Below, one piece after another: positions 3,945-48,268 of a stretch of 64,000 nt of DNA (within the stretch, counting starts at the first letter, position 1; every line of letters begins with the position of its first letter). Source of the DNA: Aureibaculum flavum (GTDB lineage Bacteria; Bacteroidota; Bacteroidia; Flavobacteriales; Flavobacteriaceae); assembly GCF_016406085.1 (NCBI RefSeq), contig NZ_JAEHFJ010000012.1, forward strand, positions 62,001-126,000, written 5' to 3'. A program made the position numbers and the translations under genes. Below the pieces are notes generated by a model. The model had not been told where the DNA came from. It searched no databases and saw only the letters and a list, made by a program, of their open reading frames with translations.

Positions 3945-3962
3945 TTTAGATTAATTACAAAT
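3945..3962 (-). promoter_or_regulatory. Fur-like operator, promoter-proximal copy (TonB receptor)
   Basis: TTTAGATTAATTACAAAT matches the perfect sufS palindrome (TTTAGAATGATTCTAAAT) at 14 of 18 positions. It is extended on both sides to CTTATTT/AAATAAG arms (3941-3965) and lies between the -7 element and the TTG start. Fur is the natural candidate because the gene encodes an iron-type receptor; the binding protein is inferred. Confidence 0.6.
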
Positions 3963-3968
3963 AAGATG

Positions 3969-3976
3969 CAAATATA
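3969..3976 (-). promoter_or_regulatory. -7 promoter element of the TonB receptor operon
   Basis: On the minus strand this reads TATATTTG, an exact match to the Bacteroidota -7 consensus TAnnTTTG. It lies between the two palindromes. No clear -33 TTTG is present; TTTA occurs about 25 bp upstream, inside the distal palindrome. Confidence 0.6.
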
Positions 3977-3989
3977 TAAATATTTCTTA

Positions 3990-4007
3990 TTTAGACTCAT
4001 TAAAGAT
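3990..4007 (-). promoter_or_regulatory. Fur-like operator, distal copy (TonB receptor)
   Basis: TTTAGACTCATTAAAGAT keeps the TTTAGANTNATT core and agrees with the sufS palindrome at 13 of 18 positions. It is flanked by TTCTTAT/ATAAGAA arms (3984-4012). Its centre is 45 bp from the proximal copy and it covers the expected -33 region. Confidence 0.5.
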
Positions 4008-4012
4008 AAGAA

Positions 4013-4329
4013 AATTTATTTTTTTTTAATTGGTCACTATTTTTTAAAAAATCTATATTTCATAAGGGTTAAAGCCTGGTGATACTGTTTTGTTCAGTGC
4101 TAATAAAAGTATATAAGTACCATATCAAAAAGTAAATCATTCGATGAGAACATAATGTATGTATAAGAATTATGAAAAATAGATCGTCTAAATGTCCTTG
4201 AAATTTAATCTTTAACTAAAAGACCAGTCATTATATAGTTTTTAACTATTTTTGAAATCAGAAAAAATATAATCGGTCTTTTGAGGTATAGACTTTGGTC
4301 TGTAGTCAAAAGACTTTTAGCTAAATAAT
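4013..4329. other. Intergenic stretch upstream of panB
   Basis: About 320 bp without a gene. It holds repeated AAAAGAC-type words: AAAAGACC at 4218-4225, its inverse GGTCTTTT at 4275-4282, and AAAAGACTTTT at 4308-4318, just ahead of panB. These could be a regulator site or a leader structure for panB. TAGACTTTG at 4289-4297 resembles a -7 element with one extra base. Nothing else is evident. Confidence 0.3.
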
Positions 4330-5145
4330 ATGTCAACAGCAAAAAAAGAATATAAAAGAGTTACTACTAAATCTTTAGTAGAAATGAAGCGTAACAATCG
4401 TAAAATTGCTATGCTAACGGCCTATGATTATACCATGGCAAAAATTATCGATAACGCAGGTATAGATATTATTTTGGTTGGAGATTCTGCCTCTAATGTA
4501 ATGGCAGGTCACGAAACTACATTGCCTATTACTTTAGATCAAATGATTTATCATGCTTCTTCTGTAATAAGAGCCATTGAAAGATGTTTAGTAGTAGTAG
4601 ATTTACCTTTTGGAAGTTATCAAGGTAATTCGAGAAATGCCTTAGATAGTGCGATTAGAATAATGAAAGAATCTGGAGCACATTCTATAAAAATGGAAGG
4701 TGGAGAAGAAATTGCTGAATCCATAAAAAGAATTTTATCTGCAGGTATCCCTGTAATGGGTCATTTAGGATTAACACCACAATCCATTTATAAATTTGGA
4801 TCTTATACTGTGAGAGCCAAAAAAGATACAGAGGCTGAAAAGTTAAAAAAAGATGCATTACTATTAGAAGATTTAGGTTGCTTTGCAGTTGTGTTAGAAA
4901 AAGTTCCTGCTAAATTAGCGGAAGAAGTAGCTAGAAGTCTTACCATACCTGTAATTGGTATTGGTGCTGGAAACGTTGACGGTCAGGTACTTGTCACACA
5001 TGATATGCTTGGTATGACTCATGAATTTAGTCCACGATTTTTACGAAGATATTTAGATTTATATAATGAAATGGATGGTGCCTTTAAAAAATATATAACT
5101 GATGTAAAAAGCGGTGATTTCCCAAATGATGATGAGCAGTATTAA
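4330..5145 (+). CDS. panB: 3-methyl-2-oxobutanoate hydroxymethyltransferase
   Basis: 271 residues, normal length for PanB. It transfers a hydroxymethyl group from 5,10-methylene-tetrahydrofolate to 2-oxoisovalerate, giving ketopantoate, the first committed step of pantothenate and CoA synthesis in the cytoplasm. Family signatures are intact: [23 protein letters not shown] split around residues 50-72 with the metal-binding Asp52, the MEGG segment near 120, [10 protein letters not shown] near 144, and [20 protein letters not shown] near 218. It starts with ATG and stands alone, divergent from the TonB receptor and followed by a 205-bp gap before moxR. No other pan gene is in the window. Confidence 0.95.
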
Positions 5146-5350
5146 TACATGTTTTTTTTATATAGGGGTAATATTTACAGCAGTTTTGAAGAAAACTTTA
5201 ACATTTGAGGTGAAATCCCCTTAAAAAATTCCCAATTTCTTTTGAACCCCCTTATTTTAACCAAATTTTAACAACATAACCTTCTCTTAAACGCTAAGTT
5301 TGCTATCGGTAAAATTAGTGTAGAAAATAAGTATTAATTTTAATTAAAGT

Positions 5351-6355
5351 ATGGAAGAACAATACCCAACAGTTGATATTAGAGCGATCAACGAAAAAAT
5401 TGAAAAAGAAAGTGCTTTTGTTGATTTGCTAACGCTAGAAATGAAGAAAGTAATTGTTGGCCAAAAGCATATGGTTGAAAGATTACTTATAGGTTTGTTA
5501 GGGAATGGACATATATTGTTAGAAGGTGTGCCGGGTTTGGCAAAAACATTAGCCATTAATACATTATCTAAGGCGGTAAAAGGCTCTTTTAGTAGAGTTC
5601 AGTTTACCCCAGATTTATTACCTGCAGATGTTGTTGGTACTATGATTTATAACATGAAAGATAATGACTTCGCTATTAAGAAAGGTCCTATTTTCGCAAA
5701 TTTTGTATTAGCAGATGAGATTAATAGAGCTCCCGCCAAAGTGCAGTCAGCTTTATTAGAAGCCATGCAAGAACATCAAGTTACCATTGGAGAAACTACG
5801 TTTAAGTTGCCAGAACCATTTTTAGTAATGGCGACTCAAAATCCTATAGAGCAAGAAGGAACCTATCCGTTGCCAGAAGCTCAAGTTGACCGTTTTATGC
5901 TAAAAACAGTTATTGACTATCCTAAACTGGCCGAAGAACAATTGATTATGCGTAATAGTCTAAAAGGTAGTTATGAGAAAGTAAATCCCGTTGTAAGTCT
6001 TGAAGAAATTTTATCTGCTCGTGAAGCGGTTAAAGAGGTTTACATGGATGAGAAAATTGAAAAATATATTTTAGATATAGTCTTTGCAACCCGTTCTCCT
6101 GAAGACTACAGATTACCAGATTTAAAACAATTAATTAGTTTCGGAGCCTCTCCAAGGGGTAGTATTAATTTGGCTATGGCATCAAAATGTTATGCCTTTA
6201 TTAAACGAAGAGGCTATGTGATTCCTGAAGATGTAAGAGCCGTTGTACATGATGTATTACGCCATAGAGTAGGAATTACCTATGAAGCAGAAGCCGAAAA
6301 CATTACCTCTGTTGATATTATCAACAAAATTGTAAACGAAGTAGAAGTACCTTAA
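5351..6355 (+). CDS. moxR: MoxR-type AAA+ ATPase
   Basis: 334 residues, typical MoxR length. Walker A is GVPGLAKT (59-66) and Walker B VLADEIN (119-125); the sensor-1 segment MATQNPIEQEGTYPLPEAQ and an Arg-rich C-terminal lid (FGASPRGSINLA) are present. MoxR ATPases act as chaperone-like partners of VWA-domain proteins, loading cofactors or remodelling complexes. Here it heads a run of a DUF58 gene and batA-E on the same strand, the standard Bacteroidota arrangement, so it most likely energises the Bat membrane complex. The preceding 205 bp contain TTTG and AT-rich promoter-like sequence but no exact -7 match. Confidence 0.93.
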   Translation: MEEQYPTVDIRAINEKIEKESAFVDLLTLEMKKVIVGQKHMVERLLIGLLGNGHILLEGVPGLAKTLAINTLSKAVKGSFSRVQFTPDLLPADVVGTMIYNMKDNDFAIKKGPIFANFVLADEINRAPAKVQSALLEAMQEHQVTIGETTFKLPEPFLVMATQNPIEQEGTYPLPEAQVDRFMLKTVIDYPKLAEEQLIMRNSLKGSYEKVNPVVSLEEILSAREAVKEVYMDEKIEKYILDIVFATRSPEDYRLPDLKQLISFGASPRGSINLAMASKCYAFIKRRGYVIPEDVRAVVHDVLRHRVGITYEAEAENITSVDIINKIVNEVEVP

Positions 6356-6458
6356 AAATTAGTTGGCATTATTCAGTGTTCAGTATATAGTACCTATATT
6401 TTTTAATTGACGTTCTATATAAACTGCCAACTGCGACTGCCATCTGTTGACTGAAAAA

Positions 6459-7328
6459 GTGGATACAAAAGAAATACTTAAAAAAGTTCGAAAGATTGAG
6501 ATTAAGACAAAAAGGTTGTCTGATCATATATTTTCAGGAGAATACCATAGCTCCTTTAAAGGGAGAGGTATGACTTTTTCTGAGGTGCGTCAATATCAAT
6601 TTGGAGACGATATTCGTTCCATAGATTGGAATGTGACAGCACGGTATCACGAACCTTTTATTAAGGTTTTTGAAGAAGAACGTGAGTTGACTATGGTATT
6701 AATGGTTGATGTAAGTGGATCTGAATATTTTGGTACAACAGAACAATTTAAGCGAGAAACCATTACCGAAATTAGTGCAACATTAGCCTTCTCGGCAATT
6801 CAAAATAATGATAAAGTAGGCTTGTTATTGTTTTCTGATGATATAGAGTTGTTTATTCCTCCTAAAAAAGGAAAAACACACGTATTAAGAATAATAAGAG
6901 AACTTATAGAGTTTCAGCCAAAAAGTAAAAAAACAAATATCGCTCAGGCCTTACGATATTTATCGAATGTGATGAAGAAAAAAGCCATTGTTTTCATCTT
7001 ATCTGATTTTATTGATGATGACTATGATAATGCGTTAAAAATCGTAGCTAGAAAACACGACGTAACAGGTATTAGACTTTATGATAGGTATGAAAAAGAA
7101 TTACCATCGTTAGGTATGGTGCCAATGATTGATGCAGAAAGCGGTAAAACAGTATTAGTAAATACTTCTTCCAAAAAAGTAAGAAATAGTTATAAGGCAA
7201 ATTACCTAAAAATGGTAGATCAGTTTGAAAATACTTTTAAAAGAAGTGGTGCTGGGGTTATTAATACGCGGATTGATGAAAGTTATGTAAAAAAATTATT
7301 AGGATATTTTAAACGTAAAGGAGCTTAG
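6459..7328 (+). CDS. DUF58 domain protein of the MoxR/Bat operon
   Basis: About 289 residues. The GTG at 6459 (VDTKEILKKVRKIEIKTKRL) is preferred over the in-frame TTG at 6447 because family members usually begin MDTKE-; this is recall, not an alignment. The DUF58 core is clear: FSGEYHSSFKGRGMTFSEVR, YQFGDDIRSIDWNVTAR, then a VWA-like half with MVDVSGS that keeps the DxSxS metal-site pattern. It is soluble, with no membrane segment. DUF58 proteins are regular partners of MoxR ATPases; the biochemical role is unknown. Its stop overlaps the next candidate start by one base (TAGTG). Confidence 0.9.
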   Translation: MDTKEILKKVRKIEIKTKRLSDHIFSGEYHSSFKGRGMTFSEVRQYQFGDDIRSIDWNVTARYHEPFIKVFEEERELTMVLMVDVSGSEYFGTTEQFKRETITEISATLAFSAIQNNDKVGLLLFSDDIELFIPPKKGKTHVLRIIRELIEFQPKSKKTNIAQALRYLSNVMKKKAIVFILSDFIDDDYDNALKIVARKHDVTGIRLYDRYEKELPSLGMVPMIDAESGKTVLVNTSSKKVRNSYKANYLKMVDQFENTFKRSGAGVINTRIDESYVKKLLGYFKRKGA

Positions 7329-8917
7329 TGAAAAAGATTAATAAAATATTCAACACAAAATTCCCGAAATTTAAAGGGACGAGTAGTGCGTTTTTGTCAC
7401 AACAACAATTGTTTGTGAAAAAAACCATACTGATGCTGGTTGTGCTGTTTAGCTTATCCTCATATTCTCAAACAGAACCTGAGGTATCTGTAAAAGTAGA
7501 TACTACGATTATAAGAATTGGTGAGCAAATAAACTATCAAATTACGGTAGATAATATTGATACAGGGGTAACCTTTCCTGAATTGAAATTGGATCCTGCT
7601 GGTAAAATTGAAATAGTAGAAGATTTAAATATAGATACGCTAAAAAACAGATTGGTAAGAAAATATTTACTGACTAGTTTTGATAGTGGAAGCTATACAA
7701 TACCGCAACAAAAAATTACGGTTTGGAGTCAAGAGTATTTAACGGACTCTGTTGTTGTAGATGTTTCAACGGTTGCTGTAGATACCTTGAAACAAAGTAT
7801 GTTTCCGATTAAATCTGTTCAAAATGAACCCTATACTTTTGATGATTTTAAAAGTTATTTATGGTGGGTTTTAGGTGGTTTAGCTCTATTAGCACTAATT
7901 CTATATGTTGTTTTTAGAAAGAAACAAACGGAAGAAGAGCTTGAAGCTAAAATACCACCTTATCAACTTGCTTTAAAGCGATTGAAAGAATTAGATGATA
8001 AGCAGTTGTGGCAAAAAAATAAAATAAAACAATATTACGTTGAGTTGACTGAAATTGTCAGGTTGTACATAGAACGTGAATTGAAAATACCAGCATTAGA
8101 ATCAACAACTAATGAATTGATGGAAACCATTATGGATTTTAATAGTTCAAGTTCATTGAATATTCCAGGGGATACCATTAAGAAATTGCAAAGCTTATTA
8201 AAAGATGCAGATTTAGTGAAGTTTGCCAAATATGTACCCTTGTCAAATGAGATTGAATTGCATCGAAATACCACGAGTAAAATAATTGAAGACATAAAAA
8301 CTACGAAACCTGAAATAGTTGTTAATAAACCAAAATGCTCCATTACGAAGGGAGATGCAACGGAAACAATTACGTTGTACAGATGGGTTTATCATATTTT
8401 TTATTATGGTTTACAGAGAGTTGATGTTAAATTATCTCCTGTAGGTAAAGAATTGCATTTAAGACGTCAGAGTTATTTTTGGAAAATAATAAATGAGTAC
8501 GGCAGAATATTTAGTAAAATCCCTTTTCTAAATGGCTTATTAATTCTGGCTTGGATTATTTGGACATCACCAATATTGTTATTGGTGGTTATCATTGAAA
8601 CAATTTTTACAGGTAGATTTTTAGATCGTGGTATGGTTTTCTTAAAGAAGAAGGGTGTAGTTACCAAATCAACAAATAGCCAAAAAATAAAAGATAAAAT
8701 AGATTTTATTAAAAACGATGAGAATTTTAATAAGAGTTATAAACTAAGAAAAAGGTTCACGAGGTTCTTAATTATTTTATCATTTTTATTCCCATTTATA
8801 TACTTTGGGAGTATCTATATAAAGAACACTTATTTTAGAAGTGAAAATGAAAAGCGTATTGAAAATATAATTGATAAAGTTAAAAAATCGATAGAAGAAG
8901 ATGAAGCTGTGGAATAA
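7328..8917 (+). CDS. Bat-operon membrane protein with an unusual C-terminal extension
   Basis: 529 residues from GTG 7328, which overlaps the previous stop. A second GTG at 7415 (codon 30) would start directly at a clean signal peptide (VKKTILMLVVLFSLSSYSQ) and may be the real start. Then a periplasmic BatD-like Ig region (about 50-170), a membrane segment (about 178-196, WWVLGGLALLALILYVVF) and a cytoplasmic helical region (about 205-335) as usual for the third gene of this operon. From about residue 337 there is a further ~190-residue part with two or three hydrophobic segments (FLNGLLILAWIIW, LLLVVIIETIF, FLIILSFLFPFIYFGSIYI) that I do not recognise. It overlaps batA by 17 bp, so translation is coupled. 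Confidence 0.75.
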   Translation: MKKINKIFNTKFPKFKGTSSAFLSQQQLFVKKTILMLVVLFSLSSYSQTEPEVSVKVDTTIIRIGEQINYQITVDNIDTGVTFPELKLDPAGKIEIVEDLNIDTLKNRLVRKYLLTSFDSGSYTIPQQKITVWSQEYLTDSVVVDVSTVAVDTLKQSMFPIKSVQNEPYTFDDFKSYLWWVLGGLALLALILYVVFRKKQTEEELEAKIPPYQLALKRLKELDDKQLWQKNKIKQYYVELTEIVRLYIERELKIPALESTTNELMETIMDFNSSSSLNIPGDTIKKLQSLLKDADLVKFAKYVPLSNEIELHRNTTSKIIEDIKTTKPEIVVNKPKCSITKGDATETITLYRWVYHIFYYGLQRVDVKLSPVGKELHLRRQSYFWKIINEYGRIFSKIPFLNGLLILAWIIWTSPILLLVVIIETIFTGRFLDRGMVFLKKKGVVTKSTNSQKIKDKIDFIKNDENFNKSYKLRKRFTRFLIILSFLFPFIYFGSIYIKNTYFRSENEKRIENIIDKVKKSIEEDEAVE

Positions 8918-9905
8918 CTTAGAACTGACAAATCCAGAATTTCTGTGGCTATTTTTACTAATACCATTGATTGCCATTTGGTACTATGTTGTGCGTAAGA
9001 AAGACAAAGCAACATTAACCATTTCAAGCACAAAAGGATTTGAAGGATCGTCGGTATTGGCAAAATTAAAACCGCTATTAAATGTGCTACGATTGTTGGC
9101 TTTATCGGCTTTAATATTAGCAATGACCAGACCTAGAAATGTTGAGGTAAGCAAAAAAACGAAAACAACTAGTGGTATTGACATTGTTATGGCAATTGAT
9201 ATTTCGGCAAGTATGTTGGCGAGAGATTTACGCCCAAACCGATTGGAAGCATTAAAAGTTGTAGCTAAAGATTTTGTTAGTCAACGTCCGAATGATCGTA
9301 TTGGTATTGTAGTTTATGCAGGTGAAAGTTTTACACAAACTCCTATTACCAGTGATAAACGTATTGTTATGAATACCATAAGTAGATTAAAATGGGGCGA
9401 TTTAGATGGAGGTACGGCCATTGGCATGGGATTGGGTTCTGCAGTTAATCGATTAAAAGATAGTAAAGCGAAAAGCAAGGTTATAATTCTATTAACGGAT
9501 GGTGTAAATAATTCAGGATTTATTGATCCTAAAACAGCAACAGAGTTGGCCAAAGAGTTAGAAATTAAAGTGTATACCATTGGTATTGGGACCAACGGAA
9601 GAGCTGAATTTCCTGTAGCTAGAGACATTAATGGGCGTTTAATTTTTAAGATGCAACCCGTTGAAATTGATGAACCATTATTAAAATTCATTGCGAATGA
9701 AACGGAGGGTAAATATTTTAGAGCCACTGATAATGAAAAATTGGCATCAATTTATGATGAAATCAATAAATTAGAAAAAACAGAAGTCGAAGAGTTCAAA
9801 TATTATAATTATCAAGAAAGATATCGTCCACTAGTATTATTAGCTGGCTTTCTGATTTTATTTGAAATGTTATTAAGAAATACAATATTTAAAAGTTTTA
9901 TTTAA
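8901..9905 (+). CDS. batA: VWA-domain membrane protein BatA
   Basis: 334 residues. Two N-terminal membrane segments (about 14-30 and 60-76), a periplasmic or cytoplasmic VWA domain with an intact MIDAS motif DISAS (D100, S102, S104), and a C-terminal membrane segment (about 308-325). Bat proteins were named for aerotolerance in Bacteroides; BatA and BatB form membrane complexes whose molecular task is not settled. The ATG at 8901 lies inside the previous gene's end (17-bp overlap). It is followed 37 bp later by batB, a paralogue with the same architecture. Confidence 0.9.
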   Translation: MKLWNNLELTNPEFLWLFLLIPLIAIWYYVVRKKDKATLTISSTKGFEGSSVLAKLKPLLNVLRLLALSALILAMTRPRNVEVSKKTKTTSGIDIVMAIDISASMLARDLRPNRLEALKVVAKDFVSQRPNDRIGIVVYAGESFTQTPITSDKRIVMNTISRLKWGDLDGGTAIGMGLGSAVNRLKDSKAKSKVIILLTDGVNNSGFIDPKTATELAKELEIKVYTIGIGTNGRAEFPVARDINGRLIFKMQPVEIDEPLLKFIANETEGKYFRATDNEKLASIYDEINKLEKTEVEEFKYYNYQERYRPLVLLAGFLILFEMLLRNTIFKSFI

Positions 9906-9942
9906 AAAATCACTTCCCTTTGGGAAGGTTAGCAGAGCATAA

Positions 9943-10983
9943 ATGTATCAATTAGAAGAAAAGACATATTTTTATTATTTCGCGGCAGTAGCTGTGCTTT
10001 TCGTGGTGTATTTGTTAGTTTCTTTATGGAAAAAACAAAAACAGAAAGCGTTTGCTGAAAGTGGGCTATTAGAAAAATTGAGTCCTGAAATATCTCCGTT
10101 CAAGTCTTTCTTTAAAATGTTAATGGTAGCCTTAGCATTATCTTTTTTAATAATAGCATTGGTAAACCCTAAAATGGGAACAAAGCTTAAAACAATTAAA
10201 AGAGAAGGTGTTGATGTGGTTTTTGCTTTAGATGTTTCTAAAAGTATGTTGGCTGAAGATGTTGCACCAAATAGATTAGAAAAGGCCAAGCAAATCATAT
10301 CAAGAATTATTGACAAGTTAGGGAGTGATAGAGTAGGTATAATCATATATGCAGGTAATGCATATCCATTACTACCAATAACTACTGACCAAGCTGCGGC
10401 AAAAATGTTTTTACAGAACGCAGATCCAGATATGGTATCATCACAAGGTACAGCAATTAACGAAGCCTTAAAATTAGGCAAAAGTTATTTTGATGATGAT
10501 GAGCAGACTAATAGGTATTTATTTTTAATTTCTGATGGAGAAGACCATGATGAAAATGTTAGTTACATAGCAGATGAGGCAACCAAAGAAGGTATTAAAA
10601 TTTTTACCATAGGTGTTGGTAATGCAGATGGTGGACCTATACCCATTAAGAGAAATGGAACATTGGTTGGGTATAAAAAAGATAGAGCAGGTGAAGTGGT
10701 TATAACGCGAATGAATGACCAGACCTTGAAAAAAATTGCTACCGATGGTGATGGTGAATATTTATATGGAGATAACACAACTAAAACGGTAGATTATATT
10801 AATGAATTATTGTTAAAAGCAGATAAAAAGGAATTTGAAACAAAGCAATTTTCTGATTTTAAAGATCAATTTCAATGGTTTATAGGCTTGGGAATTTTAT
10901 TTTTGATATTCGATGCTTTAATGTTCAATAAAAAGACGAAATGGATTCAGAAATTGAATTTGTTTAATGAAAAAAAAGATTAG
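9943..10983 (+). CDS. batB: VWA-domain membrane protein BatB
   Basis: 346 residues. Membrane segments at about 10-28 and 57-74, VWA domain with the MIDAS motif DVSKS (D97, S99, S101) and ISDGEDHDEN near 186, and a C-terminal membrane anchor (about 309-325). It is a paralogue of the upstream BatA and its expected partner. The end overlaps the start of batC by 17 bp if the first ATG of batC is used, showing tight coupling. Confidence 0.9.
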   Translation: MYQLEEKTYFYYFAAVAVLFVVYLLVSLWKKQKQKAFAESGLLEKLSPEISPFKSFFKMLMVALALSFLIIALVNPKMGTKLKTIKREGVDVVFALDVSKSMLAEDVAPNRLEKAKQIISRIIDKLGSDRVGIIIYAGNAYPLLPITTDQAAAKMFLQNADPDMVSSQGTAINEALKLGKSYFDDDEQTNRYLFLISDGEDHDENVSYIADEATKEGIKIFTIGVGNADGGPIPIKRNGTLVGYKKDRAGEVVITRMNDQTLKKIATDGDGEYLYGDNTTKTVDYINELLLKADKKEFETKQFSDFKDQFQWFIGLGILFLIFDALMFNKKTKWIQKLNLFNEKKD

Positions 10984-11809: not shown

Positions 11810-11876
11810 TAAGTGTTTACAAGTCACTGCTGTAATCTATGTTAGATATAATGAATACCATAATTGAAAAGAGTTA

Positions 11877-14396: not shown

Positions 14397-14414
14397 AATT
14401 CTAATATTTCATTT

Positions 14415-15191: not shown

Positions 15192-15206
15192 TAATTTTCA
15201 CTAATT
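15189..15206. repeat. Inverted repeat, left copy, flanking the GxxExxY gene
   Basis: CACTAATTTTCACTAATT, itself two copies of TTCACTAATT. Its inverse, with one base fewer, lies at 15655-15671. The left copy contains the GTG start of the methyltransferase. The similarity extends outward (AGACACaGATTTCACTAATT against AGACACTAATTTCACTAATT). Confidence 0.55.
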
Positions 15207-15211
15207 AAATA

Positions 15212-15586: not shown

Positions 15587-15654
15587 AATTTTATTTGGAA
15601 ACTAGTTTTGCTAAATTTTGTGAAAGGGATTTTAAATTTTTGTTTTTTCGAGAT

Positions 15655-34040: not shown

Positions 34041-35261
34041 TTAACTCAACATCCCTTTAGCTCTAATAACCGCCTGAACTAATTTATCAACTTCCTCTTT
34101 GGTATTGTAAAAAGCAAATGAAGCACGTACAGTTCCTGGAATTTTGAAGAAATCCATAATTGGTTGTGCACAGTGATGTCCAGTTCGTACAGCTATACCC
34201 AATTTATCCACAATGGAGCCAATGTCATAAGGGTGTAGCCCTTCAATATTAAAAGAAATGACTGAGGTTTTAGCTCCTGAAACATCGGGGCCATAAATTT
34301 TTAAACCGTCAATTTCTAATAATTTTTTAGTAGCATACTGAAGTAATTCATTTTCATAATTGGCAATATTGTCAAAGCCAATCCTGTTCATATAATCAAT
34401 GGCAACCCCAAAGGCTATACCACCACATATGTTAGGTGTACCTGCTTCAAATTTATGAGGCAAACCTGCATACGTAGTTTTTTCAAAAGAAACTTCAGCA
34501 ATCATTTCGCCACCACCTTGGTAAGGAGGTAATTTATTTAGCCAGTCTTCTTTTCCGTATAAAAATCCGGCACCTGTTGGTCCACACATTTTATGAGCCG
34601 ATGCTACGTAAAAATCAACATCAAGAGCTTGTAAATCGGCTTTTACATGTGGGGTTGCTTGTGCTCCATCAATGAGAACTGCGGCACCCGCGTTGTGGGC
34701 CAAATCAATTATTTTTTTTATTGGGTTAATAGTTCCCAATGCATTAGAAATATGATTTACAAAAACCAATTTGGTGTTGTCAGAAAGCAAATCTTCGTAA
34801 ACATCCATCATCAATTCACCATTAGTATTCATCGGAATTACCTTTAAAATAGCTCCGGTACGTTCGCAAAGCATTTGCCAAGGCACAATATTAGAATGAT
34901 GTTCTAATGCCGAAACAATAATCTCATCTCCTTTTTTTAATAAAGAAGAAAATCCATTTGCAACCAAATTAATTCCGTGTGTAGTACCCGAAGTAAAAAT
35001 AATTTCATGAGCATGTTTGGCATTAAAATGATGCTGAATTTTCTGACGAGCTTTTTCGTATGCATCTGTAGCTTCTTGACTCAATGTATGTACGCCTCGG
35101 TGGATATTAGCATTATAATTACTGTAATAATCTACAATGGCATCAATTACTTGTTGAGGCGTTTGAGAAGTAGCGGCATTGTCTAAATATACCAACGGAT
35201 AACCGTTAACTTTTCGTTTTAGTATCGGAAAATCAGCTCTTATTTTTTGAATATCAAACAT
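34041..35261 (-). CDS. sufS: SufS cysteine desulfurase
   Basis: 406 residues. A PLP enzyme that takes sulfur from cysteine for Fe-S cluster assembly. Lys224 in SAHKMCGPTGAGFLYG binds PLP; Cys364 in VRTGHHCAQPIMD carries the persulfide; HxG and the group-II spacing identify SufS rather than IscS. It is the terminal gene of the split suf set: sufA-B-C-D lie 8.7 kb upstream beyond an efflux operon. It has its own promoter with a perfect Fur-like palindrome 8 bp before the ATG. No sufE or sufU is in the window. Confidence 0.95.
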   Translation of the reverse strand: MFDIQKIRADFPILKRKVNGYPLVYLDNAATSQTPQQVIDAIVDYYSNYNANIHRGVHTLSQEATDAYEKARQKIQHHFNAKHAHEIIFTSGTTHGINLVANGFSSLLKKGDEIIVSALEHHSNIVPWQMLCERTGAILKVIPMNTNGELMMDVYEDLLSDNTKLVFVNHISNALGTINPIKKIIDLAHNAGAAVLIDGAQATPHVKADLQALDVDFYVASAHKMCGPTGAGFLYGKEDWLNKLPPYQGGGEMIAEVSFEKTTYAGLPHKFEAGTPNICGGIAFGVAIDYMNRIGFDNIANYENELLQYATKKLLEIDGLKIYGPDVSGAKTSVISFNIEGLHPYDIGSIVDKLGIAVRTGHHCAQPIMDFFKIPGTVRASFAFYNTKEEVDKLVQAVIRAKGMLS

Positions 35262-35269
35262 ATATCTTT

Positions 35270-35287
35270 TTTAGAATGATTCTAAAT
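35270..35287 (-). promoter_or_regulatory. Fur-like operator of sufS (perfect palindrome)
   Basis: TTTAGAATGATTCTAAAT: TTTAGAAT and ATTCTAAA around a central G are exact inverses. It lies 2 bp downstream of the -7 element, over the expected transcription start, a repressor position. Related copies precede sufA and the TonB receptor. Confidence 0.7.
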
Positions 35288-35288
35288 A

Positions 35289-35296
35289 CAAAACTA
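35289..35296 (-). promoter_or_regulatory. -7 promoter element of sufS
   Basis: Minus strand reads TAGTTTTG (TAnnTTTG), 27 bp upstream of the sufS ATG and directly upstream of the palindrome. Confidence 0.6.
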
Positions 35297-39206: not shown

Positions 39207-39585
39207 TAGGGTCAGGTTTATTGGCGTTCAACTTTTTACGATTACTAGGGTAAGTGGTGAGTATAAAAATTAAAGTCCAAACACTTACTCTAAAAATCAT
39301 GGCTTTAATACTTTCTGATGATACAGTATCAATAATAAAGTAGAGAAATAATAGCATTAGCGTATGTATTAATAAGATATAGATGATCATCGTTTTAGCG
39401 GATGGCCTTTGTCGCCAAATCAATAAGGAAGTTAAAACTGAGATCACGCCTAATACTATGTTGTAAATGACCAACCAGATGAGAATAGTATAGGGTTTGG
39501 TGTCAATACCTATTAGAACTTTAGATCCTGCGAAAATGGACATTAAGCCAATAAATAAAGCGAGTATTGCGGCGACTTTTTTCAT
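39196..39585 (-). CDS. Small four-helix membrane protein in the efflux operon
   Basis: 129 residues with four hydrophobic segments (about 5-23, 33-56, 67-88, 94-112) and a basic, Asn/Pro-rich tail (RKKLNANKPDPNEH). I do not recognise a family. Its place between the HlyD and ATPase genes, with an 11-bp overlap into the ATPase, means it is co-expressed and may be an accessory of the exporter. Confidence 0.75.
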   Translation of the reverse strand: MKKVAAILALFIGLMSIFAGSKVLIGIDTKPYTILIWLVIYNIVLGVISVLTSLLIWRQRPSAKTMIIYILLIHTLMLLFLYFIIDTVSSESIKAMIFRVSVWTLIFILTTYPSNRKKLNANKPDPNEH

Positions 39586-39630
39586 TATTATGTTTGTCTA
39601 AATTTTTGATATTATCTGTTAGTAAAGTGG

Positions 39631-40515: not shown

Positions 40516-40541
40516 TTTATCGTTGTTTGTGTTTGTTCTGT

Positions 40542-41798: not shown

Positions 41799-42415
41799 TA
41801 CTTCCGTTTTATTGCATTGATAATAAAATTTGAGACTTCCGTTTTACGTTCTTCCATTAAGTGATTAAAAGTGTTTTCGTCGGTATTTGTAATACTTTTG
41901 ATTAATGGTTTGGCTAAAAAGGGAAAGATGTTCAAGGCTAAAATATTGATGAATAACTGCTCTGCTTTTATGGGTATAATAGTTCCTTTTTTCACTTCTC
42001 TTTCAAGTTGTTTCTTAAACTTATCGATAGTCGGAAATCCAATAGTTTTCTGAACCTTTGAAATGAAGTCTGTATTTCTGTTGAGTTCTTGAAAAATAAA
42101 ATTGGGTAAATATGGATGCTCAGAAATAAAAGCGATGTAATTGTTTGTAAAATTTTTAATCTTGTCGTCAATGGAAGAATTGTCGTCTAAAATAGCCTTA
42201 ATTTGAGGGGCAATTAATGAAAATGCCTTGTGAAAAACGGTTTCAAACAGTAGTTGTTTACTTCTAAAATAATAATGTAATAAGGCTTTGTTAATACCGG
42301 CCTCATCGGCAATTTCTTGCATACGTGCTCCATCCAAACCTTTGCGTTGAAAAATTACTTCTGCGGCATTTAAAATGTCTGTTTCCGTGTTACTATCTTT
42401 TGTTTTTAATTTCAT
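41798..42415 (-). CDS. TetR-family repressor of the efflux operon
   Basis: 205 residues. N-terminal helix-turn-helix (about 10-55; ILNAAEVIFQRKGLDGARM, IADEAGINKALLHYYFRSKQ), then a ligand-binding helical domain. It is the first gene of the operon it most likely controls. A 7-2-7 palindrome lies 15 bp before its start, next to its -7 element, and also between it and the divergent serine hydrolase. The arrangement parallels E. coli CecR-YbhGFSR. Confidence 0.9.
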   Translation of the reverse strand: MKLKTKDSNTETDILNAAEVIFQRKGLDGARMQEIADEAGINKALLHYYFRSKQLLFETVFHKAFSLIAPQIKAILDDNSSIDDKIKNFTNNYIAFISEHPYLPNFIFQELNRNTDFISKVQKTIGFPTIDKFKKQLEREVKKGTIIPIKAEQLFINILALNIFPFLAKPLIKSITNTDENTFNHLMEERKTEVSNFIINAIKRK

Positions 42416-42430
42416 GTTTAACTGTATGGT

Positions 42431-42446
42431 TTAACCAAATGGTTAA
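42431..42446. promoter_or_regulatory. Probable TetR operator
   Basis: TTAACCA-AA-TGGTTAA, a perfect palindrome with a 2-bp centre, directly downstream of the tetR -7 element and over its expected transcription start. A partial extra half-site (GTTTAACTG) follows at 42418-42428. Confidence 0.65.
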
Positions 42447-42454
42447 CAAAGGTA
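42447..42454 (-). promoter_or_regulatory. -7 promoter element of the tetR-efflux operon
   Basis: Minus strand reads TACCTTTG (TAnnTTTG), abutting the palindrome at 42431-42446. Confidence 0.6.
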
Positions 42455-42485
42455 AATGTTTTTTTTTACCTAACAAATTAAATTC

Positions 42486-42493
42486 TATTTTTG
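42486..42493 (+). promoter_or_regulatory. -7 promoter element of the serine hydrolase
   Basis: TATTTTTG (TAnnTTTG) on the plus strand, 23 bp upstream of the ATG at 42517. Confidence 0.55.
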
Positions 42494-42516
42494 TAGACAA
42501 TTGAAAAAACCAATTA

Positions 42517-43857
42517 ATGAAGAAATTAATAAAGTACATTTTATTATTAGCTGTTTTAGCACTTGTTTACCTTGTGTATATAAATTATCCAAGATTAAAT
42601 ATGATAGCTGGGTATTCTGCAAAAAACATGGCGTCATCAGTGTTTTTGGCTGATAGAAGTTTTGAATTTACAGATAGTATTGATAATAGTTTTACACCAA
42701 TAAATGGTGCCGCTGATGAGATTAATGAAAAAGAGAAATCAGCAACGTCTTCCGTTTACGGATTACTAACTCGAAAAGCAATTTATAGAAATGGGTTAGG
42801 AGCTGTATTGGTTCCAAAAGGAGCAGATGAAAATGAAGCCTACTTAATGCCCAAGCGTAACCAAGCTAAAAATGGATTGGCTTTTCCGTACGGAGCGGGT
42901 GAACAAAAAGATTCAGTATTTGAAAACATTAATTATAAATTGTTGCGAACTGCAGTTGATAGTATGTTTAACAATAATGAAGTAAAACAAACGAGGAGTG
43001 TTTTAGTAGTGTATAAAGATCAGATAATTGCAGAAAACTATGCTGACGGATTTGATAAAGATTCTAAGTTGGCGGGTTGGTCTATGACTAAAAGTATAAC
43101 GGCTACTTTATTTGGTATTTTACAAAAACAAGGAAAGCTAAATATTACTGATAAAGCACCTGTAGAAAGTTGGAAAGATGACGAAAGAGCGGAAATAACA
43201 ATCAATGATCTATTGCACATGAATAGTGGATTGGAATGGGAAGAAAATTATAAAGAAATCTCTGACGTTACAAAAATGCTATTTTTAACTGACAATATGC
43301 CTAAAATTCAAGAGGATAAACAGTTAATTGGAACCCCCAATGAAACTTGGAATTATTCTTCTGGAACTACCAATCTACTTTCTGGAATTTTAAGAAAACA
43401 ATTTAATTCACATCAAGAGTATTTAGATTTTTGGTATGCTGCCCTAATTGATAAAATAGGGATGCATTCCATGCTTGTAGAGGCTGATATGGATGGAAAT
43501 TACGTCGGTTCTTCTTACGGTTGGGCAAACACACGCGATTGGGCTAAATTCGGACTGCTTTACTTGCATAACGGCAATTGGAATGGTGAACAGGTTTTTG
43601 ATCCGTCATGGGTAGATTATGTAAAAACACCTACCAATGGATCAGATGGTGAATATGGTGGTCATTTTTGGTTAAATGCTGGAGGTAAATATCCTGATGT
43701 TTCAAAAGAGCTGTATTCTGCAAATGGTTTTCAAAAACAACGTGTTTTTATAATTCCTTCGAATGACTTAGTAATTGTTCGAATGGGATTAACAAATGGA
43801 GAAGATATTGTTGATTTTAATGCTTTTTTAAGAGATATTATTAAAAGTATTCAGTAG
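42517..43857 (+). CDS. Beta-lactamase-fold serine hydrolase, membrane-anchored
   Basis: 446 residues. N-terminal membrane anchor or uncleaved signal (about 5-22, IKYILLLAVLALVYLVY). A class C beta-lactamase/DD-peptidase fold with catalytic SxxK as SMTK (Ser189-Lys192), YSS (Tyr280-Ser282) in place of YxN, and LLHMNSGLEWEENY. No clear KTG triad is visible; NGFQKQR near the end occupies that region. Esterase or peptidase activity is likely and beta-lactam hydrolysis less so. It is divergent from the TetR-efflux operon and may share its operator. Confidence 0.85.
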   Translation: MKKLIKYILLLAVLALVYLVYINYPRLNMIAGYSAKNMASSVFLADRSFEFTDSIDNSFTPINGAADEINEKEKSATSSVYGLLTRKAIYRNGLGAVLVPKGADENEAYLMPKRNQAKNGLAFPYGAGEQKDSVFENINYKLLRTAVDSMFNNNEVKQTRSVLVVYKDQIIAENYADGFDKDSKLAGWSMTKSITATLFGILQKQGKLNITDKAPVESWKDDERAEITINDLLHMNSGLEWEENYKEISDVTKMLFLTDNMPKIQEDKQLIGTPNETWNYSSGTTNLLSGILRKQFNSHQEYLDFWYAALIDKIGMHSMLVEADMDGNYVGSSYGWANTRDWAKFGLLYLHNGNWNGEQVFDPSWVDYVKTPTNGSDGEYGGHFWLNAGGKYPDVSKELYSANGFQKQRVFIIPSNDLVIVRMGLTNGEDIVDFNAFLRDIIKSIQ

Positions 43858-43875
43858 AAAAAAAGTAGGCTAAAT

Positions 43876-43912
43876 AAAAAAACAGTCAACACGTAATGTT
43901 GACTGTTTTTTA
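43876..43912. terminator. Bidirectional terminator between the serine hydrolase and sufD
   Basis: Perfect 11-bp stem AACAGTCAACA / TGTTGACTGTT with loop CGTAA, flanked by A-runs on the left and T-runs on the right, so it works on both strands for the two convergent genes. Confidence 0.88.
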
Positions 43913-43930
43913 GTTTTTTAATCCGATTTT

Positions 43931-45253
43931 TTAAACATCAAAACCTAAACTAACGTCAAGTTTTTGAGCTATAATCTTGGTAATTCTAGTTTTTAATTCG
44001 GGTATTTTAATTTTTTGTAAGGCATCATTCGCGAAAGCATACAATAATAAAGCATTTGCTTCTTTTTTAGGAATACCACGAGAACGTAAGTAAAATAAAG
44101 AATCTTCATCCAATTGTCCGATGGTACATCCATGTGAGCATTTTACATCATCAGCAAAAATTTCTAACTGCGGTTTAGCATTTATTGATGCTTTGTCGTC
44201 AATAAGAATATTATCATTTTGCTGAAATGCATTGGTTTTTTGAGCTTCTTTATCAACGATAACTTTACCATTAAAAACGCCAGTAGAGCTATCAAAGTAA
44301 ATACCTTTATACAACTCGTGACTTTCACAATTTGGAAATTTGTGATTTACAAGCGTGTGATTGTCCACTAATTGTTTGTCCTCAATAATCGTAATTCCGT
44401 TCAAGTTAGAAGTGATATGTTCTCCTTCTTGATAAAATTCTAGATTATTACGAGTTAGGCTACCACCAAAAGAAAATGTATTTACAGAAGCTACACTTTG
44501 TTGCAATTGTTTTACATAGGTACTGTCAATTAAAGATGCTGTTTTTCGATCATTTTGAATTTTATAATAATCAACGATAGCTCTTTTTCCTGCAAATATT
44601 TCAGTAACTGAGTTGGTCAATACAACGTTCTCATTCAAACTTTGATGACGCTCTACAATTTGCACATGCGAATTTTCACCAACAACTATTAAATTACGGG
44701 GTTGTAGTAAAACATCAGTTTCGATTCCTGTAGAAAAATGAATAATTTGAACCGGTTTTGGTACAACAGTATTCTTAGGTACATTGATATAGGCTCCTTC
44801 TTTAGAAAAGGCTGTGTTTAAAGAAGTAATACTGTCTTCTTTTCTTGCAATAGTATTAAAATAATGGTCAATGACCATTTTATATTTTGGTTTTGAAAGA
44901 GCAGCAGAAAGCAAACAAATATCAAATCCATCATGAGTAGTCTCTGATAAAAATGAGCTATAAACACCGTCTACGAAAACAATTTTATAAGAATCAATTT
45001 CATGTAAAAAGTAGTTCTTTACATTCTTAAATTCAATGGCAGATTCTATTTTTGGAAAGATCTTATAATCGTGTTTTAAAACTGATTTTAAAGAGGTGTA
45101 TTTCCATTCCTCATCTTTTTTTGTAGGAAATCCTTGCTTTTCAAAACGGTTAAATGCTTCAGAACGGATATCTTGTACTTTTCCATCCGCATCAGCACTT
45201 ATTTTATCTTCATAAACTAAGAATGAAGTAATTAATTTTTCTTTTAAATCCAT
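43931..45253 (-). CDS. sufD: Fe-S assembly scaffold protein SufD
   Basis: 440 residues. A SufBD-family beta-helix protein with KDEEWKYTSLKSVLKHDY near 41-58, INVPKNTVVPKPVQIIH, and the conserved C-terminal DVKCSHGCTIGQLDEDSLFYLRSRG split across two beta turns. It forms the SufBC2D scaffold that assembles Fe-S clusters. Last gene of the sufA-B-(x)-C-D operon, 9 bp after sufC and followed by a bidirectional terminator. Confidence 0.95.
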   Translation of the reverse strand: MDLKEKLITSFLVYEDKISADADGKVQDIRSEAFNRFEKQGFPTKKDEEWKYTSLKSVLKHDYKIFPKIESAIEFKNVKNYFLHEIDSYKIVFVDGVYSSFLSETTHDGFDICLLSAALSKPKYKMVIDHYFNTIARKEDSITSLNTAFSKEGAYINVPKNTVVPKPVQIIHFSTGIETDVLLQPRNLIVVGENSHVQIVERHQSLNENVVLTNSVTEIFAGKRAIVDYYKIQNDRKTASLIDSTYVKQLQQSVASVNTFSFGGSLTRNNLEFYQEGEHITSNLNGITIIEDKQLVDNHTLVNHKFPNCESHELYKGIYFDSSTGVFNGKVIVDKEAQKTNAFQQNDNILIDDKASINAKPQLEIFADDVKCSHGCTIGQLDEDSLFYLRSRGIPKKEANALLLYAFANDALQKIKIPELKTRITKIIAQKLDVSLGFDV

Positions 45254-45262
45254 AAGATCATT

Positions 45263-46000
45263 TTATTTCAACCAGTCGTATCCTTTTTCTTCTAACTCAA
45301 GAGCCAATTCTTTTCCTCCAGATTTTACGATTTTACCATCGTGTAAAACATGTACAAAATCAGGAACAATATATTCTAATAAACGTTGGTAATGCGTAAT
45401 TAAAATAACGGCATTGTCTTTACTTTTTAATTTATTAACTCCGTTGGCAACAACCTTAAGAGCGTCAATATCTAAACCAGAATCAGTTTCATCTAAAATG
45501 GCTAATTTTGGTTCTAACATGGCCATTTGAAAGATTTCATTTCTCTTTTTTTCTCCACCAGAAAAACCTTCATTTAATGAACGAGATAAAAATTTCCTAT
45601 CAATTTCAAGTAATTCTGCAGTTTTCTTAATTTTTTGAAGCATATCCTTTGCAGGAAGTTCATTAAGACCATTAGCCTTACGAGTTTCATTAATGGCAGT
45701 TTTAATAAAGTTGGTAACTGATACTCCCGGAATTTCAATTGGGTATTGAAAAGATAAAAAGATACCTTTATGTGCTCTATCTTCTGGAGCCATATCGTCT
45801 AAATCTTCACCGTTTAAAATAACCTGACCTTCAGTTACTTCATAATCTTCTTTACCAGCAATTACACTTGATAACGTACTTTTACCTGAACCATTTGGGC
45901 CCATAATGGCATGAACTTCACCAGCCTTAACGCTTAAGTTAATTCCTTTTAGTATTTCCTTGTCGTCAATGTTGGCGTGTAAATTTTTTATTTCTAACAT
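45263..46000 (-). CDS. sufC: Fe-S assembly ATPase SufC
   Basis: 245 residues. ABC-type ATPase without membrane partner: Walker A GPNGSGKS (34-41), signature SRSLNEGFSGGEKKRNEIFQ, Walker B KLAILDETDSGLDID, switch His in LITHYQRLL. It drives SufB-SufD rearrangement during cluster assembly. It lies 19 bp downstream of the broken small gene and 9 bp upstream of sufD. Confidence 0.97.
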   Translation of the reverse strand: MLEIKNLHANIDDKEILKGINLSVKAGEVHAIMGPNGSGKSTLSSVIAGKEDYEVTEGQVILNGEDLDDMAPEDRAHKGIFLSFQYPIEIPGVSVTNFIKTAINETRKANGLNELPAKDMLQKIKKTAELLEIDRKFLSRSLNEGFSGGEKKRNEIFQMAMLEPKLAILDETDSGLDIDALKVVANGVNKLKSKDNAVILITHYQRLLEYIVPDFVHVLHDGKIVKSGGKELALELEEKGYDWLK

Positions 46001-46019
46001 GTAGCTATTCTTTATTGTC

Positions 46020-46450
46020 TTATTCTGTAATTGTCATCGTAATTTGCTCATAGAAACTATTGTCTAAGATTTTAAATTCGATGCTTTTATTATTTTTTAT
46101 TATTGTGGCAATGGCCACTTTTTTCTTATTATATACGGTGTCTTTCTGTTTATCTAATTTGTCAAAATTAATCTCAGAAAAGTTAGTCGTTTTAGCTTTT
46201 TCACCTTCAAAATCAGTCACACTATTTTTAACAATTGTTAGTGGAATTTTATGTTTTGATCTGGTGAAATTACCATCCACTGATTTGTTTTGTCTTCAAT
46301 CTTTTTAAAGTCAAATGCAACTGGTGCTCTTTGCTCAAAGCCTTCCTCTTTCGAAAAATCAATAGATACTTGATAGGATTCGTGCTGAAGGCCAAGATAT
46401 TGAAGACCTATTAATAATGCCAGATAGATGTAATTTGTTGCTTCTACCAT
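46020..46450 (-). pseudogene. Small gene in the suf operon, apparently frameshifted
   Basis: Two overlapping reading frames share this interval. The first (46450 to 46238) encodes an N-terminal hydrophobic segment (NYIYLALLIGLQYLGLQHE) and QRAPVAFDFKKIEDKTNQ. The second (46280 to 46020, GTG start) encodes DGNFTRSKHKIPLTIVKNSV and a Lys/Asp-rich end. Read through a one-base shift between about 46258 and 46293 they would give one ~143-residue protein filling the gap between sufB and sufC exactly. That points to a single frameshifted gene or a base error in an A-rich run; two separate overlapping genes remain possible. Family not recognised. Confidence 0.55.
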
Positions 46451-46456
46451 AACTTG

Positions 46457-47905
46457 TTAACCTACACTTCCTTCTAAGCTTATTTCTAATAATTTTTGAG
46501 CTTCAACAGCAAATTCCATCGGTAATTTATTTAAAACTTCCTTACTAAAACCATTTACAATCAACGCAATGGCTTTATCTGTGCCAATACCTCTTTGATT
46601 ACAATAAAACAATTGATCTTCACCAATTTTAGAGGTGGTTGCCTCATGTTCTATTTTAGCCGTTTTATTTTTAACTTCTATATATGGAAAAGTATGAGCT
46701 CCACATTCATTTCCCATCAATAAGGAATCACATTGTGAGAAATTACGAGCATTATCTGCTCTCGAATTTACTTGAACTAAACCACGATAAGAATTTTGAG
46801 ATTTACCTGCAGAAATTCCTTTAGAGATAATAGTACTTTTCGTGTTTTTACCTAAATGAATCATTTTTGTGCCCGTATCTGCTTGCTGATAATTATTAGT
46901 AACAGCAATAGAGTAAAATTCACCAACAGAATTATCTCCTTTTAAAATACAACTCGGGTATTTCCAAGTAATAGCAGAACCAGTTTCTACCTGTGTCCAT
47001 GATATTTTTGCATTTTTTTCACACAATCCACGTTTGGTCACAAAGTTATAAACCCCACCTTTACCGTCTTTACCACCAGGAAACCAGTTTTGAACCGTTG
47101 AGTATTTTATTTCAGCATCATCTAGTGCTATGAGTTCTACTACTGCAGCATGTAATTGATTTTCATCTCTTGCCGGGGCAGTACAGCCTTCAAGGTAACT
47201 CACATAACTACCTTTGTCTGCAACTACTAGTGTACGTTCAAATTGACCTGTTCCTCCTTCGTTAATTCTGAAGTATGTTGATAATTCCATAGGACATTTT
47301 ACTCCTTTCGGAATGTAACAGAAAGAACCATCACTAAATACAGCACTATTTAATGCAGCATAAAAATTATCAGTTTGTGGCACAACAGAGCCTAAATATT
47401 TTTTAACCAATTCAGGGTGCTCTTGAATTGCTTCAGATATTGGCATAAAAATAATGCCTTTCTCTGACAATGTCTTTTTAAAAGTAGTAGCAACAGAAAC
47501 AGAATCTACAACAATATCAACTGCAACATTTTGTAGTTTCTTTTGCTCATCAACTGAAATACCAAGTTTGCGATACATTTCTAACAAATCAGGATCTACA
47601 TCATCTAATGTTTTGTTTGGATCTGCCGCTTTTGGAGCCGAATAATAACTGATTGCTTGAAAATCTGGTTTTTTATAGTTGACGTTAGCCCAATCAGGTT
47701 CTGTCATAGCTTCCCAAATTCTAAAAGCTTCAATACGCCAGTCCGTCATCCATGAAGGCTCATTTTTCTTTTTAGAAATAGCTCTAACAACATCTTCATT
47801 TAGTCCTATAGGGAATTTATCAGATTGAATATCTGTATAAAAACCATATTCATACTCTTTGGTTTCAAGCTCTTTTTTTAAATCGTCTTCTGTATATTTA
47901 CTCAT
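46457..47905 (-). CDS. sufB: Fe-S assembly scaffold protein SufB
   Basis: 482 residues. SufBD-family core with [87 protein letters not shown] split around it, and [21 protein letters not shown] near the end. It holds the nascent cluster in the SufBC2D complex. It starts 9 bp after sufA. Confidence 0.97.
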
Positions 47906-47914
47906 TCTTGTTTT

Positions 47915-48244
47915 TTATAGTGAAAAACTTTCCCCGCAACCGCATGTTCTGTTTGCATTGGGGTTTTTAAATACAAATCCAGTACCATTTAAACCACCAG
48001 AATAATCTAATGTTGTACCTACAAGGTACAAAAAGCTCTTTTTGTCTACAATTATTTTCACCGAATTTACTTCAAAAATTTTATCGTTTTCTAGTTGTTC
48101 CTTATCAAATTTTAATTCATAAGACAGTCCAGAGCAACCACCGCTTTTAACGCCAACACGTACAAAGTCAGTAGCGGCATCAAAACCGTCATCTTTCATC
48201 ATTTCAATAACTTTATTTTTTGCTATTTCAGATACCTGTATCAT
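47915..48244 (-). CDS. sufA: A-type Fe-S carrier protein (SufA/HesB family)
   Basis: 109 residues. The three conserved cysteines are Cys37 (SGGCSGLSY), Cys101 and Cys103 (RTCGCGESF). It receives clusters from SufBCD and passes them to apoproteins. First gene of the suf operon, with a -7 element and a Fur-like palindrome between it and the divergent giant protein gene. It could equally be named iscA or erpA. Confidence 0.92.
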   Translation of the reverse strand: MIQVSEIAKNKVIEMMKDDGFDAATDFVRVGVKSGGCSGLSYELKFDKEQLENDKIFEVNSVKIIVDKKSFLYLVGTTLDYSGGLNGTGFVFKNPNANRTCGCGESFSL

Positions 48245-48250
48245 AGTTAA

Positions 48251-48268
48251 TATAGATTCGTTCTAAAT
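48251..48268 (-). promoter_or_regulatory. Fur-like operator of the suf operon
   Basis: Plus strand TATAGATTCGTTCTAAAT agrees with the sufS palindrome at 14 of 18 positions, with TAGA/TCTA half-sites intact. It lies 5 bp downstream of the -7 element, the same geometry as at sufS and the TonB receptor. Confidence 0.55.

Follow-up and report, generated by a model that had tools for sequence, protein, structure and literature searches.

In Aureibaculum flavum, genes for iron uptake, iron–sulfur (Fe-S) assembly and iron-using respiration carry one and the same 23-bp palindrome, TTATTTAGAATNATTCTAAATAA, which we call the iron box. We analysed a stretch of 64,000 nucleotides of this bacterium (NZ_JAEHFJ010000012.1, positions 62,001–126,000; referred to as the window, and all coordinates below are window positions), where the box stands at the promoters of sufS, of the suf operon and of a TonB-dependent receptor gene. 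The place of the box on the promoter follows the class of the gene. At uptake and Fe-S assembly genes it lies on the start site or on the −33/−7 region, and at genes of iron-using respiration it lies at about −67 (or at about −56 or −78, whole helical turns away). The best explanation is that the palindrome probably serves as operator for the iron regulator of flavobacteria, which is most likely the one Fur protein of this genome, and that the position of the palindrome sets the sign of control.

The iron box in the window

A first, sequence-only reading of the window had reported a perfect palindrome at 35270–35286 and three related sites, at 48251–48268 (14 of 18 letters), 3945–3962 (14/18) and 3990–4007 (13/18). 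The palindrome, TTTAGAATGATTCTAAA, is present and has the form 8-1-8, and the similarity scores are correct. An exact TAnnTTTG element was also found at all three promoters, as had been reported (TAGTTTTG at sufS, TATATTTG at sufA and the receptor gene), with a box 2–6 bp away. The 18-bp frames, however, turned out to be off-centre: lining up the four window sites gives a full box of 23 bp. Out of 22 letters, the sites agree with its consensus in 20 (35267–35289), 18 (48248–48270), 19 (3942–3964) and 18 (3987–4009). Fur boxes are odd-centred palindromes of the 7-1-7 type, and TTATTTAGAATNATTCTAAATAA has the same odd-centred, AT-rich form. Box centres were predicted with the TA of TAnnTTTG set at −12; in the transcript map of Flavobacterium psychrophilum this element occupies −12 to −5 (PMC9723704). 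The boxes, their promoter elements and the genes behind them are as follows.

3942–3964, minus strand: iron box 1 of the TonB-dependent receptor gene, on the start site; predicted centre +11; identical in genomes G007, G009 and G011
3969–3976, minus strand: −7 element TATATTTG of the receptor gene, read from the sequence; offset −12
3987–4009, minus strand: iron box 2 of the receptor gene, over the −33 region; predicted centre −34
1518–3938, minus strand: TonB-dependent receptor of 806 aa that starts with TTG; in NCBIfam it matches the siderophore receptor MxcH best, without reaching the cut-off
35267–35289, minus strand: 23-bp iron box at the sufS start site, containing the palindrome 35270–35286; predicted centre +6
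35289–35296, minus strand: −7 element TAGTTTTG of sufS, read from the sequence; offset −7
34041–35261, minus strand: sufS, SufS-family cysteine desulfurase, 406 aa (Aminotran_5; TIGR01979 sufS over cut-off)
48248–48270, minus strand: 23-bp iron box at the sufA start site; predicted centre +10; place kept in 14/24 genomes
48274–48281, minus strand: −7 element TATATTTG of the suf operon, read from the sequence; offset −11
47915–48244, minus strand: sufA/HesB-type Fe-S protein, 109 aa, first gene of the suf operon (Fe-S_biosyn)
46457–47905, minus strand: sufB, 482 aa (SUFBD_core and SufBD_N)
45263–46000, minus strand: sufC by its place, 245 aa, ABC-type ATPase between sufB and sufD (ABC_tran)
43931–45253, minus strand: sufD, 440 aa (SUFBD_core and SufBD_N)

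Frequency and conservation of the box

The four window sites might be chance matches in AT-rich DNA. Judged on the single window alone, the secondary sites do look like noise, because a 15-bp core of the box shows no excess of weak matches: 17 were observed against 16.5 in simulated windows at three mismatches, and 108 against 109 at four. The perfect palindrome did not occur in any of 40 simulated windows. As a scoring unit the 15-bp core was too weak (1440 matches genome-wide against 1195 for the control at three mismatches), and the 23-bp form was used instead. Among the best 15-mers elsewhere in the genome, four (L081–L084) fall within open reading frames (ORFs), and one (L080) stands before an ORF and has no outer arms.

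With the 23-bp form, the 4.75-Mb genome has 20 places within three mismatches of TTATTTAGANTNANTCTAAATAA, including all four window sites, against 7 for the reversed pattern. By this control about a third of the 20 places would be due to chance; L070, which precedes ligA, and L072, at the porV end, were taken as such. Across 17 genomes of the genus, 114 places were found within two mismatches against 7 for the reversed pattern, summed over the genomes. The strength of the excess comes from this genus-wide count, since the A. flavum genome alone gives 5 against 2 at two mismatches. From the genus-wide set, 75 of the 114 sites were listed individually, and 53 loci were inspected for gene context. 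A motif scattered at random over the genome, which the sequence-only reading had named as the outcome that would speak against it, was looked for, and an excess was found in both the genome and the genus.

The sites are also conserved in place. For sufA, 26 of 30 loci were examined and the gene was found in 24. In 14 of these 24 genomes, some of them from other families of the order, a box of at least 16 of 22 letters follows the −7 element and stands no more than 28 bp ahead of the start codon. The secondary window sites become significant through the 23-bp form, the genus-wide counts and the conserved place of the sufA site taken together, and chance is hardly credible as their explanation.

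At sufS (27 loci examined), a box of at least 16 of 22 letters lies 28 bp upstream of the start codon in 7 genomes, all within the genus. Its sequence is identical in G007, G009 and G011, with close variants in G006, G013 and G015. Five more genomes of the genus have only the downstream arm TTCTAAA left, and two genomes of other families have a 16–17-letter match about 50 bp out. By coordinates, sufS lies close behind sufB in 7 of the 12 other-family genomes that have both genes, where it may share the sufA promoter. In the sufS leaders of two species of the genus (L030, L036), the arms TTTAG and TTCTAAA are kept and are split by an insert, with loss of the box. The insert of L036 is an inverted repeat (CCGA...TCGG), and the arm proximal to the start codon stays in place. 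This arm may have a role in translation too.

Target genes and two position classes

In the window, the box stands before a TonB-dependent receptor related to siderophore receptors, sufS and the suf operon from sufA on. Elsewhere in the A. flavum genome it was found at feoAB, a second TonB receptor, mrp/NBP35, an AraC-type regulator beside hemA, nqrA, sdhC and a small c-type cytochrome. The Pfam match of sdhC itself is just under the cut-off, and the succinate dehydrogenase flavoprotein gene comes next. Relatives show the same kinds of genes again and add a NiFe hydrogenase, a multihaem cytochrome c, a solute-binding protein and genes resembling sufT; by its domains, the multihaem cytochrome may be complex III-like. 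As is expected of Fur boxes, the palindrome is found at iron uptake promoters, namely those of TonB receptors, feoAB and the solute-binding protein. The sites at the three units proposed from the window belong to one iron box that occurs genome-wide. What that proposal missed is the wider regulon, including a respiratory class with another position of the box.

To compare positions, site–gene pairs were picked by hand by gene class, with AraC/hemA, YceI, DUF4198, DUF819, transporter-like and unknown genes omitted. Several pairs are orthologues in congeners and not independent, and one gene start (L141) was shifted to its position in relatives. An exact TAnnTTTG was present in 18 of the 22 uptake and assembly pairs, giving centres from −48 to +20, none of the 18 near −67. 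Centres of +6 to +20 were obtained for sufS, sufA, mrp, two sufT, two TonB receptors, a DUF6607 gene and three porins, and centres of −25 to −48 for seven further TonB, small-protein and porin sites. In the other four pairs an exact element is lacking; the feoA promoter shows TATTTTCG at −12 relative to the box. An exact element was present in 14 of the 17 iron-using pairs. Each of these 14 includes an element from which the centre comes out at −66 to −68 or −77/−78, some having others besides. The remaining three have one-mismatch elements at these places among others.

The box between hemA and the divergent AraC-type gene was considered as a −67-type target of hemA and rejected. The TAnnTTTG of hemA lies 152–153 bp from the site and the start of the AraC-type gene 12–26 bp away, and on these distances the site was assigned to the AraC gene. 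The arrangement was seen in five species (L071, L138, L139, L152, L172), with 125–155 bp from the box to hemA.

A Lys/Cys-rich ORF of 47–52 aa (CC...C..C.C) has a box just upstream in four species inspected (L075:2306–2464, minus strand; L178; L179; L162), over the −33/−7 region in three of them. In A. flavum it is located at about 33 kb of G000:C4, upstream of tex. A Pfam search gave no match for this ORF, which is possibly a small iron-starvation or metal-binding protein.

Spacing of the box at sdhC and nqrA

We took 60 genera of the family, one genome each, and the DNA before sdhC and nqrA. The best box was chosen without the promoter, and only then was the distance to TAnnTTTG read. An offset of 54–56, 64–68 or 75–79 was counted as in register. 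The box was in register in 53 of 60 genera at sdhC and in 28 of 59 at nqrA, and the reversed consensus in 8 of 60 and 2 of 59. For 300 permuted palindromes the means were 7.3 (sdhC) and 6.5 (nqrA) and the best values 41 and 27; none reached the observed value. The nqrA locus of G083, where the match begins inside the gene, was dropped. Loci with uncertain start codons were kept (G063 in both sets; sdhC of G035, G040, G048, G055, G067, G069, G080 and G082). An alternative choice between tied best sites gives 52 of 60 for sdhC.

Among promoters with a box of at least 14 of 20 letters, 53 of 57 at sdhC and 28 of 34 at nqrA are in register. None of them has the element at 58–63 or 69–74, and the ten out of register have it elsewhere or not at all. 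Outside the vicinity of the promoter elements, the stretch that separates box and promoter is low in information. It is thus the spacing that is conserved, in steps of about a helical turn, and not the sequence.

Register is kept in part outside the family. In an order-wide draw of sdhC (the best 30 loci, 29 besides A. flavum, of 54 matching genomes), the box was in register (54–57 or 64–68) at 14 of 24 other-family loci, some of them one turn closer, and at 4 of 5 further loci of the own family. Among named relatives (the best 80 of 545), the sdhC offset is 66–67 in 80 of 80. These are mostly Chryseobacterium, with Elizabethkingia, Kaistella, Epilithonimonas, Cloacibacterium and Riemerella columbipharyngis, and the count adds less than the number suggests because they are close relatives with mostly degenerate boxes. 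A fixed, helically phased upstream distance, as expected of a class I-like activator site, is thus found at sdhC and nqrA, and in part in other families.

Several points weigh against a position code of this kind. The registers were set after the first data, which is a weakness. The box is out of register in 31 of 59 genera at nqrA and 7 of 60 at sdhC, and at 10 of 24 other-family sdhC loci, with none in register in families f3, f6, f9 and f12. In most named relatives the sdhC box is degenerate, with 13–14 of 20 letters in 60 of 80 where the control gives 11–15. The gene of the solute-binding protein (G003), an uptake gene, has one-mismatch elements at several distances, 65 included.

Alternatively, the −67 boxes might not activate sdh and nqr. 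They might serve a divergent gene, or the iron control at sdh and nqr might be repression by iron-free Fur or work indirectly by way of a small RNA, as it does in other bacteria. For blocking polymerase, a position of −67 is ill suited. At sdhC and nqrA the distance from box to −7 element is fixed in roughly helical-turn steps in many genera, with little conservation of the sequence in between; such spacing would not be required by a divergent promoter or by a small RNA. On the other side, A. flavum has a divergent gene whose start is 48 bp away from the sdhC box. Positive control that is indirect and relies on small RNAs has been called the most common mechanism (PMC3751524), and in the sections of PMC5609570 used here the fur mutant of Riemerella anatipestifer is not reported to lose sdh expression with iron. 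We consider it unlikely that the −67 boxes do not activate, although we would give this alternative some weight.

By eye, a second short palindrome, such as TGTGAGATTTCTCAC or TGACATTTGTCA, was seen between the box and −33 in the sdhC leaders of Chryseobacterium and relatives (e.g., L362, L424, L431). It could be the seat of a CRP/FNR-type activator.

Which protein reads the box

A. flavum has a single Fur-family gene (one PF01475 match, 93 bits), and the best solved relatives of its product are Fur proteins. Across the 60 genera, Fur was found in 60 genomes and DtxR in 55. The Fur box of R. anatipestifer, 5'-ATTTAGAATTATTCTAAAT-3', is the 19-bp core of the iron box (PMC5609570), which bears out the earlier suggestion that flavobacterial Fur sites use a TTTAGA half-site. 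In the same report, Fur boxes lie up to 100 bp from the start codons of TonB and haem-uptake genes, and purified Fur gel-shifted all four promoters tested, two of which match the consensus poorly. Fur is the best candidate binder because of its single gene, its presence in 60 of 60 genomes, the binding of R. anatipestifer Fur to the core and the absence of DtxR from some box-bearing genomes. On this analysis, Fur is probably the main binder of the box in A. flavum.

It is very improbable that a regulator of the DtxR/IdeR type binds the palindrome, even though two DtxR-type genes and then feoB lie 10–12 kb before the window. The box bears no known resemblance to the DtxR consensus. Five of 60 genomes lack the DtxR C-terminal domain, and three of these, G048 (99% complete), G085 (94%) and G086 (80%, a possible gap), keep in-register boxes at both nqrA and sdhC; G063 and G083 have none in register. 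DtxR is not present wherever the boxes are, and was rejected as the binder on this co-occurrence. At L177:1486–4029, both DtxR-type genes carry FeoA domains and the start of a feoB gene follows.

Odd-centred palindromes are what Fur-family proteins bind, and this counts against a second iron regulator, the MerR-like MliR or an undescribed protein, that would read the same box and be responsible for a large share of the control by iron, either by itself or jointly with Fur. Data from R. anatipestifer nevertheless speak against Fur as the sole regulator (PMC5609570). Four SUF genes go up on iron restriction in the wild type and the fur mutant alike. Three sdh genes fall on iron restriction by −2.47 to −2.79 in the fur mutant against −1.01 to −1.46 in the wild type (values as printed; the sections used give no mutant-versus-wild-type value with iron). 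The hmuR gene, which carries a good box, is still strongly iron-responsive in the mutant (8.44 vs. 7.89), and feoA/feoB are lower in the mutant (−2.75/−2.25, −3.03/−2.22), which is the opposite of Fur repression. Such responses indicate that another iron regulator acts in R. anatipestifer.

In Bizionia, genes that go down when MliR is deleted include TonB receptors, Fe2+-uptake genes, an imelysin, an AraC-domain gene, mrp/nbp35, and genes for Rieske and cytochrome c proteins (PMC9478572); this set overlaps the box regulon, by target lists only. MerR activators, however, work mostly on promoters whose spacer is long, at 19 bp (PMC9478572), which differs from the box positions on the start site and at −67. 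In R. anatipestifer, box-bearing promoters are shifted by purified Fur, and hmuR is up with iron in the fur mutant (2.64 as printed; PMC5609570). We regard a second reader of the box as unlikely, about on a par with the absence of activation at −67. A puzzle in the published data is that the R. anatipestifer fur mutant keeps much of the iron response at promoters that bear the box or are expected to, which calls for a second regulator. The claim that a single Fur-type regulator controls the three units of the window is supported in part, in that one genome-wide iron box and one Fur-family gene were found. Fur may not control them alone, as the SUF genes and hmuR of R. anatipestifer are iron-regulated without fur (PMC5609570) and the sufS site occurs in only part of the genus.

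Proposed mechanism

We infer the following scheme for A. flavum, with Fur as the binder, including its metal-dependent step, its contact with polymerase and the direction of control at each promoter. When iron is present, the metal-loaded regulator on the start site or the −33/−7 region would block RNA polymerase at TonB receptors, feoAB, sufS, sufABCD, mrp and sufT. About 67 bp upstream (or whole turns away), beyond the −33 element, it would assist the polymerase in transcribing sdh, nqr and the genes of c-type cytochromes. Under iron shortage, the regulator would leave the DNA, uptake and suf genes would come on, and iron-using respiration would go down. One signal may in this way turn iron uptake off and iron use on.

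In iron-rich cells of Elizabethkingia anophelis, succinate dehydrogenase is higher by log2 +2.52 and the complex III cluster 4.1–8.6 fold (PMC7221216). On iron restriction, the SUF genes of R. anatipestifer go up and sdh goes down (PMC5609570). In these reports, the direction of the iron response in relatives agrees with the proposal, and the effect of fur deletion at suf, sdh and feo does not.

For the Flavobacteriales as a whole we suggest, tentatively, that one iron sensor and one palindrome give repression or activation by position alone: on the start site it would shut off uptake and Fe-S assembly, and at about −56, −67 or −78 it would be a phased activator of succinate dehydrogenase, Na+-NADH dehydrogenase and cytochromes. 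This generalization may well prove right and could about equally fail. If true, it would mean a direct iron-sparing switch without a small RNA in at least two families, probably predating their split.

Other features of the window

212–1483, minus strand: 423-aa protein downstream of the TonB receptor gene, with a lipoprotein-like signal read by eye

Searches of Pfam and NCBIfam gave no match for this protein, and its match in the structure set is at chance level only. Downstream, past the receptor gene, it is accompanied by an ankyrin protein, a DUF2271 protein and a PepSY/flavodoxin reductase. Two very long ORFs lie beside the suf operon, at 48643–55779 (2378 aa) and 56263–61494 (1743 aa).

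Comparison with known systems

The 19-bp core of the iron box has already been published, with gel shifts, as the R. anatipestifer Fur box, so the central inference of the sequence-only reading is sound and not new. The palindrome, ATTTAGAATTATTCTAAAT, is the same (PMC5609570). The box table of that report, in the part used here, contains no suf, sdh, nqr or cytochrome genes and no position classes. A further report describes Fur repression and binding in R. anatipestifer and cites a consensus of the E. coli type (PMC7976709). The position code appears to be new: in the open-licence literature, mostly listings, we found no description of a phased upstream Fur box or of Fur activation of sdh or nqr in Bacteroidota, which is not proof of absence. 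How this phylum handles iron has been described as largely unknown (PMC9478572). Given the box and its position code, genes that go down and genes that go up with iron could be predicted in a flavobacterial genome.

In E. coli, the suf operon is repressed by Fur with iron, has another layout, and is also under IscR and OxyR. In A. flavum, sufS is separate from the suf operon. Bizionia argentinensis, which is marine and belongs to the Bacteroidetes, has the activator MliR, and the targets of MliR overlap with the box regulon; MliR differs in being MerR-like and in activating uptake genes too, and no binding site is given in the parts seen (PMC9478572). Fur of Caulobacter crescentus belongs to another phylum and acts on nuo rather than nqr, and the passages used mention no fixed, helically phased spacing (PMC6120978, PMC3751524). 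In common with the scheme proposed here, iron-bound Fur of this species represses uptake genes and directly activates sdh, and it also activates nuo, for which gel shifts are cited (PMC6120978, PMC3751524).

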